From NCBI RefSeq assembly GCF_032813545.1, contig NZ_CP136520.1:2970001-3034000 (forward strand): a stretch of 64,000 nt of DNA, given 5' to 3'. Shown here piece by piece: positions 12,144-20,596 of the stretch (its first letter is position 1; the number at the start of each line of letters is the position of its first letter). The notes beneath the pieces are model-generated. The model made no database searches. It saw only the letters and a list, made by a program, of their open reading frames with translations, and was not told the origin of the DNA. The DNA is from Nodosilinea sp. E11 (GTDB taxonomy: Bacteria > Cyanobacteriota > Cyanobacteriia > Phormidesmidales > Phormidesmidaceae). The position numbers and the translations under genes were made by a program.

Positions 12144-12341
12144 CATGCTGGTAACAAACTCACTGCTGAAAGACTAGCAGACGCAATGCATGAGGCTGTG
12201 AGCGATCGAGCAATGCGTCAACGCTCCGCCAATCCTTGAGCAAAAATTCAAGCTGAAGCTGGGGTGGCCAATGCCGTCGCAATCATCTCCCAACTTGAAA
12301 AGCGCGGAGTTTTCTGTGGAAAAAGCTGTGGAAAAAACTAG
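12144..12341 (+). pseudogene. Remnant of a GT1-type (sterol glucosyltransferase-like) glycosyltransferase C-terminus
   Basis: Reading frame through aac-aaa-ctc at 12153 gives NKLTAERLADAMHEAVSD, then, after an in-frame TGA near 12236, AKIQAEAGVANAVAIISQLE. This matches the end of UGT-type glycosyltransferases, where the last helices carry LTAERLA...AVTD...RA..LGAKIRAEDGV. Only about 60 residues of a family of about 420 survive, with an internal stop and no upstream part. It is a decayed fragment right after the DUF4912 gene. Confidence 0.6.
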
Positions 12342-12357: not shown

Positions 12358-12820
12358 CTAGTCGTCGGCACGACATAATACCGAATCCGAGTGCCATACC
12401 CCCAATAGCAAAACTTTGCCCGTCATCTCGCGCCGCTGAGGGTATGGGTTTTGGTGGGACTTGGGCGAGGTGTTGCCCTGCTCCAGCGCTTCTTCGATCA
12501 GCGCCTGAATCACCACGCCGTTCTCAGCGTGGAGGTTAACCATGCCGCCGTGGTCACCGGTGTGGCGCATGGTTCTAAAGCTATCGGCAGCATCGACCAT
12601 CAGCACGCCGGGGTAGGCCATGTAGAGCTTAAAGCGAGAGACCCCATCGTTGTTGATCAAGTCGGGCAGTTCGGCCAGCGACCCTGGGTTGATATCGGTG
12701 AGAATGACGTGAAAGGCGTAGTCGACGCAGCACTGAGGCGCTGCCGCTGCCAATCGTCTGTCTAGCGCCGCCTTGGGCTTTCGTCGTGGAACTGCTGGGC
12801 AAAGTCAATGATCGTGGTGG
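12358..12820 (-). pseudogene. Remnant of dihydropyrimidinase/D-hydantoinase
   Basis: On the minus strand the frame gives TTIIDFAQQFHDES, then slips by one base near 12775 and continues with VDYAFHVILTDINP, FKLYMAYPGVLMVDA and MVNLHAENG. These are landmark blocks of dihydropyrimidinase (the lysine of FKL.MAYPG and the histidine of HAENG are metal-site residues in the family). Only about 140 residues of about 480 remain; both ends are missing and one frameshift is visible, so this cannot make an active enzyme. Confidence 0.75.
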
Positions 12821-12873
12821 AAGGTTCCCGGTTCGAGGGCCGCCTTGCACCTTGAACCTTGAACCCCAAATCC

Positions 12874-13122
12874 CTAGTTGCGATAGTGCAGCTCTTCTAG
12901 CCAAACGCGCAGTTCATCGTCAGAGGCGTGGTTGATGGTCAGTTGAGTCAGGGGGTCGTAGGCATTCCATAGGGTTGCGCCCGAGTCGTCGGTGGCTGGC
13001 CAGACATGGGGTTCGTTGGTGGCATTTAGATGAGCTAAGATGCCGTGCCAAACGCTAGCCAGTTGGGTAACGAGGCTGGGGCGCTGGTGAGCAGTATTGA
13101 TGGGCCAGTAGCTGCTGTTCAT
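12874..13122 (-). CDS. Small conserved-looking protein of unknown function
   Basis: An 82-residue soluble protein with a good ribosome binding site (AGGAG, about 7 bases before the ATG). The N-terminus reads MNSSYWPINT and the C-terminus ends DDELRVWLEELHYRN, a pattern I associate with small cyanobacterial hypotheticals, but no function is known to me. The middle contains a Trp-rich segment. The gene borders the dihydropyrimidinase remnant and is divergent from the riboswitch-controlled DUF4278 gene. Confidence 0.65.
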   Translation of the reverse strand: MNSSYWPINTAHQRPSLVTQLASVWHGILAHLNATNEPHVWPATDDSGATLWNAYDPLTQLTINHASDDELRVWLEELHYRN

Positions 13123-13447: not shown

Positions 13448-13939
13448 ATGAAACTCACCTATCGCGGCATTAGCTACGATGCTACCCCTAGCGCAGCTCC
13501 ACAGCTGAGCAAAACCCTGGCTGTAGGCCGCTATCGCGGGGCTCCGGTGGTTTTGAATACGCTGGCCGAACTGCCCGCTCAGCCCGGTGACAATTTGACC
13601 TGGCGCGGTGTGCCCCACCGCACAGGCATTGCGGCTCCGGTCGCGGCCACCCCCGTGCCACCCCTTGAAATTCCTGCTGTTGCAGCTAGCATTGCAGACC
13701 CGGTTGTTACCCCAGAAGTAGGTCCTGAGATGACTCCCACTAACATTCCTGACTTGGCTAGAAATCTGTTCATTCGCCGCCACCAGCGCAGCCGTCGGCG
13801 CGAACAGGGCATGATGGTGCGGTTAGCCGCTGAAGTCGGTATTCCCGTAGAAGATGCGGCCCACTACGAAAGCCACATTCAGGGCAAAATGCCCCACGAT
13901 TTCTCTGGTTACGATCGCGGCTCAGCCGCCATGAGCTAA
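13448..13939 (+). CDS. DUF4278-domain protein under glutamine riboswitch control
   Basis: A 163-residue protein whose N-terminus MKLTYRGISY is the signature of DUF4278. A second YRG (residues 29-31) and a WRG (about 52-54) repeat the motif, followed by a Pro/Val-rich linker, a basic segment (RRHQRSRRREQ, about 110-120) and a helical C-terminus. DUF4278-type small proteins include, to my knowledge, PirA, a PII-interacting regulator of arginine synthesis in Synechocystis; this protein is larger and its role is not known. The riboswitch upstream ties its expression to glutamine level, which supports a role in nitrogen control. A strong terminator follows. Confidence 0.88.
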   Translation: MKLTYRGISYDATPSAAPQLSKTLAVGRYRGAPVVLNTLAELPAQPGDNLTWRGVPHRTGIAAPVAATPVPPLEIPAVAASIADPVVTPEVGPEMTPTNIPDLARNLFIRRHQRSRRREQGMMVRLAAEVGIPVEDAAHYESHIQGKMPHDFSGYDRGSAAMS

Positions 13940-16231: not shown

Positions 16232-17407
16232 CTACTTGAGCCAGCCCTTTAGGCGGGCGGCTACCTGGGGCCGCCGCAGCTTGCGCATGGCCTTAGTTTG
16301 AATTTGGCGCACCCGCTCCCGCGACAGATTAAAGATGCCGCCCACCTCTTCGAGGGTGTGGGTTTCGCCCGTGGTGAGGCCATAGCGCAGGGTAATGATG
16401 TCTTTTTCGCGCTCGGTCAGCACCTCGGCCAGCACGCTGGTAATCTCCTGGCGCATCATGTTTTCGCTAATTTTTGACTCCGGCGTTTGGGTACGGCTGT
16501 CTTCGAGCAGCTCCATCAGCTCGGTGTCTTCGCCTTTGCCGACGCGGTGGTTTAGAGAGAGCGATCGCCTGCGCACCTGCTGCAAACTTCTCAGTTGTTC
16601 AACCGTCACATCTAGGGCATCGGCCAATTCTTGTTCGCTGGGGTTGCGCTGTAAATCGCGACGCAGATCGCGGTGAGCTTTTTTAAGCTTGTTCAACTTT
16701 TCCACAATGTGGATCGGCAAACGAATGGTGCGGGCATCGTTGGCAATGGTGCGGGTAATGCCCTGACGAATCCACCAGTAGGCGTAGGTCGAAAATTTGT
16801 AGCCTTTGTCGGGATCAAATTTTTCGGTAGCGCGGTTTAGGCCGAGGGCACCTTCCTGAATTAAATCGAGAAAAGGCACCCCACGATTTAAATAGCGCTT
16901 GGCGATCGACACCACCAGCCGCAGATTTGATCGGATCATGCGCCGCTTTGCCGTGCGACCCTCATGGAGCTTTTGGGTAAACTCAGGTTCGCTGAGCTTC
17001 ATTTTTTCGACCAGTTCTTGCCGGGTAGGTTTTCGACCTAGCTCCTTCTGAAGTTTTTCGCTGGCAGCTTCTACCTTAGATAAGAAGCGAACCTGCCGGG
17101 CTAACTCAATTTCTTCACTGGGTTTGAGCAGGGGATAGCGGGCCATCTCTTTAAAGAAGGCACCTACGGCATCATCGGTGAGGGTTTTGCTGTAGCCCGA
17201 CAACCCCATCTCCGACATGGCTTCTGACTGAGAAAACTTGGCTAAGACCTCGCGATCTTCGTCCCATGCGGTTAGGTCAGGGGTTAATTCGCTATCGGCA
17301 GCAGAGACCTTTTCGGCCACCCTATTTAGGTCGGGGGCAAATCCATCCAGCGATTCGTCGGCCCAGGCTATAGAACTATCTCTGTCGGAGTTATACGTAG
17401 TAGTCAT
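16232..17407 (-). CDS. sigC: RNA polymerase sigma factor, group 2 (SigC-like)
   Basis: A sigma-70 family factor of 391 residues. Region 1.2 begins at about residue 80 (DDAVGAFFKEMARYPLL), region 2 spans about 155-225 with FLDLIQEGALGL and the YAYWWIRQ melting segment, region 3 about 230-305 and region 4 about 320-391 with the helix-turn-helix LEEVGGIFNLSRERVRQIQ. Full RpoD-type conservation plus a shortish variable N-terminus marks a non-essential group 2 factor; the AVGAFFKEMARYPLL block is what I recall for cyanobacterial SigC, linked to carbon/stationary-phase and heat responses. The paralogue assignment is less sure than the family. Its promoter lies in the region shared with priA. Confidence 0.85.
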   Translation of the reverse strand: MTTTYNSDRDSSIAWADESLDGFAPDLNRVAEKVSAADSELTPDLTAWDEDREVLAKFSQSEAMSEMGLSGYSKTLTDDAVGAFFKEMARYPLLKPSEEIELARQVRFLSKVEAASEKLQKELGRKPTRQELVEKMKLSEPEFTQKLHEGRTAKRRMIRSNLRLVVSIAKRYLNRGVPFLDLIQEGALGLNRATEKFDPDKGYKFSTYAYWWIRQGITRTIANDARTIRLPIHIVEKLNKLKKAHRDLRRDLQRNPSEQELADALDVTVEQLRSLQQVRRRSLSLNHRVGKGEDTELMELLEDSRTQTPESKISENMMRQEITSVLAEVLTEREKDIITLRYGLTTGETHTLEEVGGIFNLSRERVRQIQTKAMRKLRRPQVAARLKGWLK

Positions 17408-17974
17408 GGGGTAAATAAAACGGTATACCTACAGGACGAAGCATGCAGATTGAAGAATGAATATCAGGCTGCCCTGCCGACGGCAACCCTCCAGCAAAAC
17501 CTCTTGATCCCAAACCAAATCTTTGGATTTATTTTGTGAGTCCACAATACGGATTTTTCTACGAATTCCTAGGCAATGTAACATTTCTTTGGCATCTTGC
17601 GTAGTGTAACAGCGAATCCACAAAATGAACGGCAACTTAGCGGTAATTAGCCGCCAATTTTTGCTATCCTCGGTTGCTTTGTTGATCTATTGATCTCTAT
17701 CTAGGAAGAATCTACCCAACCGGGCAGGCAAACATCGCTTGCTGATGGTTTGCGGTGAGTCTCTCAAATTTTCTGGAGTGGTGAGGAAAACTTTTCCACG
17801 GTCTGTGGAAAAGTTTTTTAAACTGTGGAAAAGTTTTCCACAGACCGTGGAAACTAAGGACTCTTTATAAATAGAAAACGACTGGGCGGTTAGATTGCAA
17901 TTGAGGGCAGACTCTTCCCGGCGTCTCAATCCACCTCTTACACTGGCAGAGGTAATGTATCGGGATAACGACGC
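17408..17974. other. Divergent promoter region between sigma factor and priA
   Basis: No supported gene. The left half holds the sigma factor promoter. The right half contains the DnaA-box-like cluster (17791-17855) and an AT-rich TTTATAAATAG near 17864, which could be the priA -10 area. Confidence 0.5.
17791..17855. repeat. DnaA-box-like cluster in a 20-bp inverted repeat
   Basis: Five copies of the cyanobacterial DnaA-box consensus TTTTCCACA or one-to-two-mismatch forms lie within 65 bp: 17792-17800 (TTTTCCACG), 17804-17812 and 17824-17832 (TGTGGAAAA, reverse), 17834-17842 (TTTTCCACA) and 17847-17855 (CGTGGAAAC). Two arms, 17793-17812 and 17834-17853, are perfect inverted repeats of 20 bp separated by 21 bp. 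The cluster is about 120 bp upstream of priA. It may bind DnaA as a replication-linked control or titration site, or be a strong cruciform/hairpin. Confidence 0.6.
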
Positions 17975-20596
17975 GTGGGCTTTGGCGATAGTGCAATTCT
18001 GCCCCAGTGGGTCAACGTTTTGGTGGACTATGGCGGTCAGCCCGCAACCTATACCTACGCGATACCAGCTGGTTTAAATGTGCAGGTGGGCGATATCTTA
18101 ACGGTGCCTTTTCGCCATCAGAGCATTGGTGCGATCGCCCTGGCCTTGGTGACGACCCCCCCAGCTAACCTGCTGCCCGATCAAATTCGGTCGGTAGAGG
18201 GCATTGTCGAACAGCGGTTTTTTGCCCCGCCCTACTGGGCGTTGTTGCAGCGGGTAGCCGACCACTACCAAGTGCCGCTGATGCAGGTACTCAAAACAGC
18301 CTTGCCGCCGGGGCTGCTGGCGCGATCGCAGCGACGGTTGCGGTTAAAGCGCGATCGCCTGCCTTTAGCGGTTCCCGATGCTCTACCGCCGGGGGCAATA
18401 GCTTTGCTCGATGACCTTCAGCGATCGCGCAGCGCAGACTACACCTGGCCCTATCTGCAAAAGCGCGGCCACAGCTACCGAGCCATCCAGCAGCTAATTC
18501 AGCTGGGCTGGGTCGAGTCGTATCTGGCACCGCCCCAGCCGCCCAAGACCAAACAGCGCCAGGCCGTTACCCTCGTCTGTGGCGATGTTTTACCCTCAGA
18601 ACTAAGCCCTCGTCAGCAAGACATTCTTGCCACGCTTCGTCGCCAAGGGGGCGATCTGTGGTTGAGCGATGCTCTGCAACTGTGTCAAACCACCAGCCCC
18701 ACCCTCAAGCGCCTCACCCAGGCGGGCTGCTTGGTCATCGAACCGCGAGAACAGTTGCGCACCGAGGCTGGGCCTACCCTGACCGCCGATCGGCCAAAGC
18801 CGTTAACCCCAGATCAGGCTACTGCGCTCAACTATATAAATAGGAGTCAGCAGGGCAGCCAATTTTTGCTTCACGGGGTTACTGGGTCGGGGAAGACCGA
18901 GGTCTACTTACAGGCGATCGCCCCCCGTCTCGCCGCTGGCCAGTCGGCTCTGGTGCTGGTGCCCGAAATTGGCCTGACCCCTCAGCTCACCGATCGCTTT
19001 CGTCGCCGCTTCGGCGATCAGGTGTGGGTCTACCACAGCGGTCTGTCCGATGGCGAACGCTATGATACCTGGCGGCAGAGCCTTAAGCCCTTTAAACCCC
19101 TGGTGATCGTCGGTACTCGTTCCGCTATATTTATGCCCCTGCCCAACCTGGGGCTAATCATTCTCGACGAAGAGCACGACAGCAGCTACAAGCAAGACGT
19201 GGCCCCCTGTTACCATGCCCGCACCGTCGCCCGCTGGCGGGCTGAACTGGAGAATTGCCCCCTAGTGCTCGGGTCTGCCACCCCCTCCCTCGAAACCTGG
19301 GTGCAGTGCCAGGGCCTCGGCAAAAGCCAAACAGAACCAGTAGGGTCGGCACTGCCCACCATCAGCCCAAAACCCACCGATTTCCCTGCAGCCGAGGCCC
19401 ATCAAAGCCCTTCACCCCCCTCCAAACCCGGCACTTCCCCCCCCCATCCCCCCATCCCCCCATCCCCCCATTCACCCATCCACCCCCTCTCTCCCCACTC
19501 CCTCCCCTGGACCTACCTCTCCCTACCCCAGCGGGTGCAGGCCCAACCGCTGCCCGAGGTCAACGTCATAGACATGCGCGAAGAGCTGCAAGACGGCAAC
19601 CGCAGCATTCTCAGCCGCCCCCTGCAAACGGCGTTGACCCAGATGAAATCCGATGGTAACCAGGGTCTATTGTTCATTCATCGGCGGGGGCACAGCAGTT
19701 TTGTCTCGTGCCGCAGCTGTGGCCACGTCATGATGTGCCCCCACTGCGATGTGTCGCTCTCATACCATCAGCCAGGAGCCCATAGCCCAATGACGCTGCG
19801 CTGTCATTACTGCGGCTTTAGCCAGGGTCACCCTAAGCACTGCCCCCAATGCAGTTCGCCCTACCTAAAGCACTTTGGCAGCGGTACCCAGCGGGTGGTT
19901 AATGCCATCGCCGAAACCTTTCCCGAGTTGAGCTGCATTCGTTTCGACAGCGATACCACGCGCACGAAAGGAGCCCACCGCGCTTTGCTCACCCGGTTTG
20001 CCGAGGGCGGGGCCGATCTGCTAGTGGGCACTCAAATGTTAACCAAGGGCATTGATCTACCTCAGGTCACTCTAGTCGGCATTATCGCCGCCGACGGCCT
20101 CCTATATATGAACGACTACTGGGCCAGTGAACGGGCCTTGCAGATGCTGATTCAGGTAGCGGGTCGCGCGGGCCGGGGCAGGCAGCCGGGGCAGGTGATG
20201 TTGCAGACCTATACCCCCGATCATCCGGTGGTCGAAGCGGTTACCCGCCATGCCTATGAGGGGTTTATCGCCGAAGAATGGGCGCAGCGGCAGATGTTGC
20301 AGTACCCTCCCGCTGGGCAAATGATTTTGCTGCGGCTGAGCAGCACTGAGGCTGAGCTGGTGCAGCAAACCGCCGAAAGGCTTGCCCATGATGTAACCCA
20401 GCTATTGGGCGATTCTGACTATCAGCTGCTAGGCCCCGCCCCGGCTCCCATTCCTCGGGTAGCGCGCCGCTTTCGCTGGCATTTGTTGATTAAAGGGCCG
20501 CTCCATCAACCTCTTCCCAATGTGCAGGGGTTGAAGCAGCACTGCCCAGCCGCAGTCAGCCTCACCATAGATGTTGACCCGCTCAATCTAGCGTGA
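17975..20596 (+). CDS. priA: Primosomal protein N' (replication restart helicase PriA)
   Basis: ATP-dependent 3'-5' helicase that reloads the replisome at stalled forks. The start is a GTG; an in-frame TAA lies just upstream. Of 873 residues, about 10-110 are the 3'-DNA-binding domain, Walker A GVTGSGKTEVY is near 301, the DEEH box near 398, and the zinc-binding cysteines occupy about 578-640 (CRSCGH, CPHCD, CHYCG, CPQC). Residues about 450-510 are a low-complexity Pro/Ser/His insertion between helicase motifs, making the protein longer than usual; part of it is encoded by a copy of the dispersed palindrome at 19340-19360. A DnaA-box-like cluster lies upstream. Confidence 0.95.
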   Translation: MGFGDSAILPQWVNVLVDYGGQPATYTYAIPAGLNVQVGDILTVPFRHQSIGAIALALVTTPPANLLPDQIRSVEGIVEQRFFAPPYWALLQRVADHYQVPLMQVLKTALPPGLLARSQRRLRLKRDRLPLAVPDALPPGAIALLDDLQRSRSADYTWPYLQKRGHSYRAIQQLIQLGWVESYLAPPQPPKTKQRQAVTLVCGDVLPSELSPRQQDILATLRRQGGDLWLSDALQLCQTTSPTLKRLTQAGCLVIEPREQLRTEAGPTLTADRPKPLTPDQATALNYINRSQQGSQFLLHGVTGSGKTEVYLQAIAPRLAAGQSALVLVPEIGLTPQLTDRFRRRFGDQVWVYHSGLSDGERYDTWRQSLKPFKPLVIVGTRSAIFMPLPNLGLIILDEEHDSSYKQDVAPCYHARTVARWRAELENCPLVLGSATPSLETWVQCQGLGKSQTEPVGSALPTISPKPTDFPAAEAHQSPSPPSKPGTSPPHPPIPPSPHSPIHPLSPHSLPWTYLSLPQRVQAQPLPEVNVIDMREELQDGNRSILSRPLQTALTQMKSDGNQGLLFIHRRGHSSFVSCRSCGHVMMCPHCDVSLSYHQPGAHSPMTLRCHYCGFSQGHPKHCPQCSSPYLKHFGSGTQRVVNAIAETFPELSCIRFDSDTTRTKGAHRALLTRFAEGGADLLVGTQMLTKGIDLPQVTLVGIIAADGLLYMNDYWASERALQMLIQVAGRAGRGRQPGQVMLQTYTPDHPVVEAVTRHAYEGFIAEEWAQRQMLQYPPAGQMILLRLSSTEAELVQQTAERLAHDVTQLLGDSDYQLLGPAPAPIPRVARRFRWHLLIKGPLHQPLPNVQGLKQHCPAAVSLTIDVDPLNLA
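19340..19360. repeat. Dispersed palindrome copy inside priA
   Basis: GTAGGGTCGGCACTGCCCACC differs by one base from the copy near lipA. It is in frame within the low-complexity insert of PriA. Confidence 0.7.

Follow-up and report, generated by a model that had tools for sequence, protein, structure and literature searches.

A conserved DnaA-box cluster between a sigma factor gene and priA of Nodosilinea sp. E11, a putative DnaA-responsive element close to oriC

An array of DnaA-box-like sites was found in the 567-bp gap between the divergent genes coding for a sigma factor (minus strand) and for primosomal protein N' (priA; plus strand) of Nodosilinea sp. E11. It comprises six sites (17782-17854), namely three exact copies of TTTTCCACA, two sites with one mismatch, and one site with two mismatches; all coordinates refer to the window, which is the whole stretch of 64,000 nucleotides that was analysed. 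The array is conserved among relatives, keeps a constant distance from the sigma factor gene, and is linked to dnaN, upstream of which consensus boxes are scarce in the array-bearing genomes. On balance, this oriC-proximal DnaA-box cluster is somewhat favoured to be a putative DnaA-responsive element of the sigma factor promoter, which probably takes up DnaA as well. The features concerned are the following.

16232-17407, minus strand: RpoD-like sigma factor gene, divergent from priA (TIGR02997 above cut-off)
17529-17611 (approximate limits), minus strand: conserved block upstream of the sigma factor gene, probably a promoter or leader (alignment; mean identity 0.947 at 121-180 bp)
17782-17790, minus strand: DnaA-box-like site with one mismatch, TTTTCCTCA (site scan)
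17792-17800, plus strand: DnaA-box-like site with one mismatch, TTTTCCACG (conserved register position, 385 bp from the sigma factor start codon)
17804-17812, minus strand: exact DnaA box, TTTTCCACA (site scan)
17824-17832, minus strand: exact DnaA box, TTTTCCACA (site scan)
17834-17842, plus strand: exact DnaA box, TTTTCCACA (aligned with box two of the conserved three-box core)
17846-17854, minus strand: degenerate DnaA-box-like site with two mismatches, GTTTCCACG (read by eye; corresponds in the alignment to box three of the conserved core, the inverted one)
17793-17812 and 17834-17853, no strand assigned: arms of a perfect 20-bp inverted repeat (not kept in most relatives)
17975-20596, plus strand: priA, primosomal protein N' (NF004066 and TIGR00595 above cut-off)

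Composition of the array and its flanking genes

The original prediction placed five sites at 17791-17855; these are real, but the array begins 9 bp further left and holds six sites. The perfect 20-bp inverted repeat that it described is exact, and 120 bp indeed separate the last site from the priA start (17975). According to the alignment of the relatives, the core of the array consists of three boxes, two direct and one inverted. Two further copies that had been reported at 12315-12335 are also present (12315-12323 and 12327-12335, both on the minus strand) and form two exact DnaA boxes arranged as a 12-bp direct repeat. No exact box occurred at a matching distance from priA in the nine array-bearing loci that reach 10 kb upstream (L083-L088, L092, L099, and L102), and a DnaA-box pair made up of one exact box and one with a mismatch was found approximately 7.3-7.4 kb from the priA start in L084, L085, L086, and L102. 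A box at 16698, inside the sigma factor gene, was ruled out as a part of the array, as it coincides with the codons for V-E-K in the protein; this codon constraint also explains why most array-bearing relatives have it too, approximately 1.1 kb from their arrays. Elsewhere in the window, a glutamine riboswitch (RF01739; 13334-13416, plus strand; 53.7 bits) was located just upstream of a gene (13448-13939) whose product is similar, in its C-terminal part, to glutamine synthetase inactivating factor IF7A (62.4 bits, short of the 70-bit cut-off).

This genome has six genes above the TIGR02997 cut-off, among them the sigma factor gene adjacent to the array. The best PDB matches of the product of the latter are named SigA; it is referred to as RpoD-like only, since it falls below the NCBIfam cut-off for RpoD. 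A scan of 17380-18000 yielded no recognisable sigma-70-type promoter.

Comparison with chance expectation

The claim of a cluster beyond chance is borne out: the array packs five sites with no more than one mismatch into 72 bp, whereas two such sites per 72 bp were the maximum reached by any of 200 dinucleotide shuffles of the window, and likewise by any of 40 stretches of 20 kb (800 kb in total) sampled from the same chromosome. In total, the window holds 18 such sites, a number in keeping with chance, since the shuffles averaged 13.1 and 7 of 100 reached 18. Similarly, the 9-mer is not over-represented genome-wide, since the control pattern, read backwards, gave 34 matches versus 26 exact TTTTCCACA sites in the 6.1-Mb genome. 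Eight of these 26 sites are located within 24.6 kb that includes dnaN (C7:2963239-2987842). In the array-bearing genomes G009 and G025, for which every exact site was listed, no place other than the array has two or more exact boxes within 1 kb. With several consensus boxes close together, outside oriC and beyond chance, the array is a putative DnaA-box cluster (DBC).

DnaA as the putative binding protein

The sequence TTTTCCACA is described as the cyanobacterial DnaA box, which was bound and footprinted (EMSA and footprinting) with domain IV of Cyanothece DnaA (PMC4674748). The boxes of the arrays (n = 44) are flanked by G at -1 in 84% and by G at +1 in 84% of the cases; for the oriC boxes of other genera and families (n = 90), these values are 53% and 69%, and for nine singleton sites of the present genome, 22% and 44%. 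Hence, the array flanks resemble those of oriC boxes, the singletons less so. In addition, the DnaA motif GKDHTTV was present in all 36 aligned proteins in which domain IV was covered; five of the six array-less same-genus genomes count in this comparison, the DnaA locus of G024 lacking domain IV. A DnaA residue (G000 position 416), being R or H in the array genomes and Q in the array-less ones, was considered as a co-change and rejected; it is ascribed to phylogeny, because it is one of 12 group-separating columns and H occurs in other families too. The exact cyanobacterial 9-mer, the oriC-like flanks, an intact DnaA, and the conservation of the sites speak for the original prediction of DnaA boxes. 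DnaA would probably bind the array cooperatively. As DnaA is reported to be dispensable in some cyanobacteria (PMC7198777), its role at the array cannot be assumed.

Conservation and spacing among relatives

Same-genus genomes (Nodosilinea-type, as labelled in the genome search; the named relatives retrieved via PriA are Nodosilinea and allied strains) numbered 26, the present one included. The region upstream of priA was readable in 24 of them (20 plus four more), the contig beginning at priA in the other two (G001 and G013). An array of three to six sites with at most one mismatch occurs between the sigma factor gene and priA in 18 of these 24 genomes. A single exact box is left in each of the arrays of G008, G011, and G017. 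Among the array-less genomes, G006 and G024 possess two exact boxes 210 bp apart in place of the array, and G002, G014, G018, and G021 contain no boxes in the region upstream of priA. Outside the genus, none of 20 stretches upstream of priA (L156 covering only 687 bases) had two sites within 100 bp, although several of these genomes keep the sigma factor-priA pair. A search of 388 genomes of the class with the three-box pattern returned 11, with one match each, all of the same genus and all beside priA; the arrays of the other seven array genomes, including the present one, are too altered for this pattern. In a tree of 28 sigma factor gene sequences, which took in five array-less same-genus genomes (G021 was left out), all array genomes are on one side and the array-less ones branch toward other genera, making it probable that the array was gained once.

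In all 18 array genomes, the start of a box lies 385-390 bp from the sigma factor ATG (standard deviation 1.5); the distance between the last box and priA varies from 73 to 398 bp (standard deviation 99). As only the former distance is fixed, the sigma factor part of the predicted link with both genes is better supported than the priA part. An 81-bp block near the sigma factor gene is kept in the six array-less same-genus genomes too (83.9-93.8% identity), indicating that this block is older than the array. The DNA adjoining the array, at 301-384 bp from the sigma factor start, has a mean identity of only 0.50, and the spacer alignment at 241-384 contains gaps (190 of 2772 cells). The constant spacing could reflect few insertions and deletions instead of selection. 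The array may be read as a regulatory element that joined a pre-existing promoter region of the sigma factor gene.

The origin of replication and its linkage to the array

The gene dnaN is located at C7:2963632, approximately 24 kb from the array. Directly upstream of it are five boxes, two exact and three variant, as well as CTACTACTACTACTAC beside an AT-rich stretch; DnaA-trio-type CTACTACTAC repeats are kept, the tandem boxes being adjoined by these repeats and the AT-rich stretch. As this layout fits the plan of box, spacer, and DnaA-trio (3'-GAT-5' repeats) that has been described (PMC8287927), the site is likely oriC. The dnaA gene is distant from both dnaN and the array, at 841 kb. The GC skew, computed from the 40 sampled stretches, is weak, with a cumulative low near 3.2 Mb and a second low near 5.1 Mb, and cannot separate dnaN from priA; the lowest value is compatible with an origin located in this part of the chromosome, but proves little given this weakness.

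In all eight array genomes in which dnaN and priA are on one contig (G000, G004, G009, G012, G017, G019, G020, and G025), they are 21.7-40.0 kb apart and in the same orientation. In the array-less G014, priA is at least 450 kb away from dnaN, and in G028, which is of another genus and lacks an array, approximately 30 kb separate the two and the orientation is the other one. No exact box was found within 800 bp upstream of dnaN in 13 of 17 array genomes; of the others, G004, G017, and G019 have one and the present genome has two. At the oriC of array genomes, most box positions survive as TTTTCCCCA, GTTTCCACA or TTTTCCACG. One to three exact oriC boxes occur in the array-less G002, G006, G014, G021, and G024, and the array-less G018 has six at one dnaN copy and none at the other. 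Of 18 genomes belonging to other genera and families, 16 had at least two. This comparison points to a loss of most consensus boxes from the oriC of array-bearing genomes. No dnaN match was obtained in G003 and G013. Three array-less same-genus genomes possess two dnaN copies above the cut-off (G018, L207 and L208; G002, L205 and L206; G014, L203 and L204), the second copies being counted apart; in G018, it is the second copy that has the six exact boxes upstream. Furthermore, in G017, G008, and G011 (L062, L063, and L064), extra variant boxes resembling those of oriC are found upstream of dnaN at a distance of 1.3-1.4 kb, as if oriC had moved or doubled; these sites are beyond the 800 bp counted, and include a further exact box in G017. 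In Leptolyngbyaceae cyanobacterium T60_A2020_046 (L097), an oriC-like box cluster (12445-12936) lies directly between priA and an open reading frame at 12936, which, judged by eye, starts like dnaN.

Possible function and alternative explanations

According to the favoured explanation, DnaA would bind the array, and expression of the sigma factor gene, and perhaps of the divergent priA, would depend on how much free DnaA is present or on its nucleotide state. Uptake of DnaA by the array would damp re-initiation at an oriC whose boxes are mostly non-consensus; such uptake is expected because the array is 22-40 kb from oriC, carries consensus boxes, and would be copied soon after initiation. We infer both the direction of this regulation and the effect on initiation. 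The DnaA titration or regulatory site that had been predicted is supported by the comparison of relatives in this qualified form, with the sigma factor gene as the more plausible partner than priA. All comparative signals stem from one clade, so that the gain of the array, the loss of oriC boxes, and the linkage may be one historical coincidence. The favoured explanation is also weakened by the dispensability of DnaA in some cyanobacteria, by the outcome of the promoter scan, and by the three array genomes that retain a single exact box in their arrays.

A less probable explanation, although the strongest of the competing ones, is a pure titration or DnaA-inactivation site comparable with datA, its place beside the sigma factor gene and priA being incidental. 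The proximity of array and dnaN in all eight linked cases, the consensus boxes of the array while oriC holds variants, and the array-less G014 with its distant priA would fit titration, but titration does not require a sigma factor spacing that is fixed in 18 of 18 genomes, an array offers three to six boxes only, and G028 lacks an array despite its priA being near dnaN (in the other orientation). What is described for B. subtilis likewise speaks against pure titration by a single small array. It is improbable that the array is an operator of another transcription factor recognising TTTTCCACA half-sites at a periodicity of approximately 10/21 bp. Indeed, the half-sites alternate, and several sites of G008, G011, and G017 are TTTTCAACA/CTTTCCACA in dyads; against this, the 9-mer and its flanks equal those of oriC DnaA boxes, the two direct boxes and one inverted box of the core are not a plain palindrome, and TTATCAACA also occurs among the boxes described for the linear chromosome of Cyanothece (PMC4674748).

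A second or relocated replication origin, as suggested by the original prediction of a secondary origin-like element, is very unlikely, because the array lacks DnaA-trio repeats: tandem CTA or TAG repeats occur in none of the 18 arrays, and dnaN, at 24 kb, is not adjacent. The densest consensus boxes of G009 and G025 are at the array and not at dnaN, and oriC directly adjoins priA in one other cyanobacterium (L097); yet the oriC of L097 is on the opposite side of priA, and the dnaN site of the present genome retains a normal oriC with its trio-type repeats, AT-rich stretch, and tandem boxes. The least credible explanation, largely refuted, is an RNA or DNA hairpin that acts as an attenuator in the leader of priA, or else a mobile palindrome. 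The stem is strong in this genome (DNA fold of the inverted repeat, z -7.05; none of 200 shuffles equally stable), but a perfect arm of 20-21 bp occurs in only three of the 18 arrays (those of this genome and two others), the other 15 having arms of 7-14 bp, and neither a terminator-like site nor an Rfam match was found at the array. As its long arm is not conserved, the hairpin was rejected as a functional part of the array.

As a more speculative extension, which seems rather doubtful, initiation control may have been split in this clade: high-affinity DnaA binding would have moved from oriC to the array, 22-40 kb off at the sigma factor promoter, oriC would keep weak boxes and the unwinding element, and the array would set both the timing of initiation and the sigma factor programme.

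Comparison with known systems

The array is best filed as one more DnaA-box cluster outside oriC, a known kind of element, with DnaA binding predicted from its boxes. No earlier account of it was found in the accessible parts of the open-licence literature on Nodosilinea DnaA or on cyanobacterial DnaA boxes and titration. The role of DnaA in cyanobacteria that replicate without it is described as unclear (PMC7198777), and a single conserved array outside oriC, fixed at a sigma factor gene, offers a direct target for the other roles of DnaA in this phylum. Moreover, because oriC holds few consensus boxes in the array-bearing clade, titration can be tested against transcription control.

In Bacillus subtilis, DnaA is reported to activate sda and to repress other genes from DnaA-box clusters outside oriC (PMC4447404), and early initiation to follow the removal of six such clusters (PMC5295017). 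The array resembles the oriC-proximal clusters of B. subtilis (for example those at sda, ywlC, trmE, and gcp) in its several intergenic DnaA boxes outside oriC (PMC5295017, PMC4447404). It differs in occurring in another phylum, as a single array fixed to a sigma factor gene, and in the company of oriC boxes that are mostly variant. Like datA of Escherichia coli, whose boxes are described as high-affinity, it is a non-coding box cluster away from oriC; datA, however, is approximately 1 kb long, needs IHF, and promotes DnaA-ATP hydrolysis (PMC5295017). Finally, the array shares the 9-mer and similar flanks with the cyanobacterial oriC described upstream of dnaN (PMC4674748), from which it is distinguished by the lack of DnaA-trio repeats and of dnaN.
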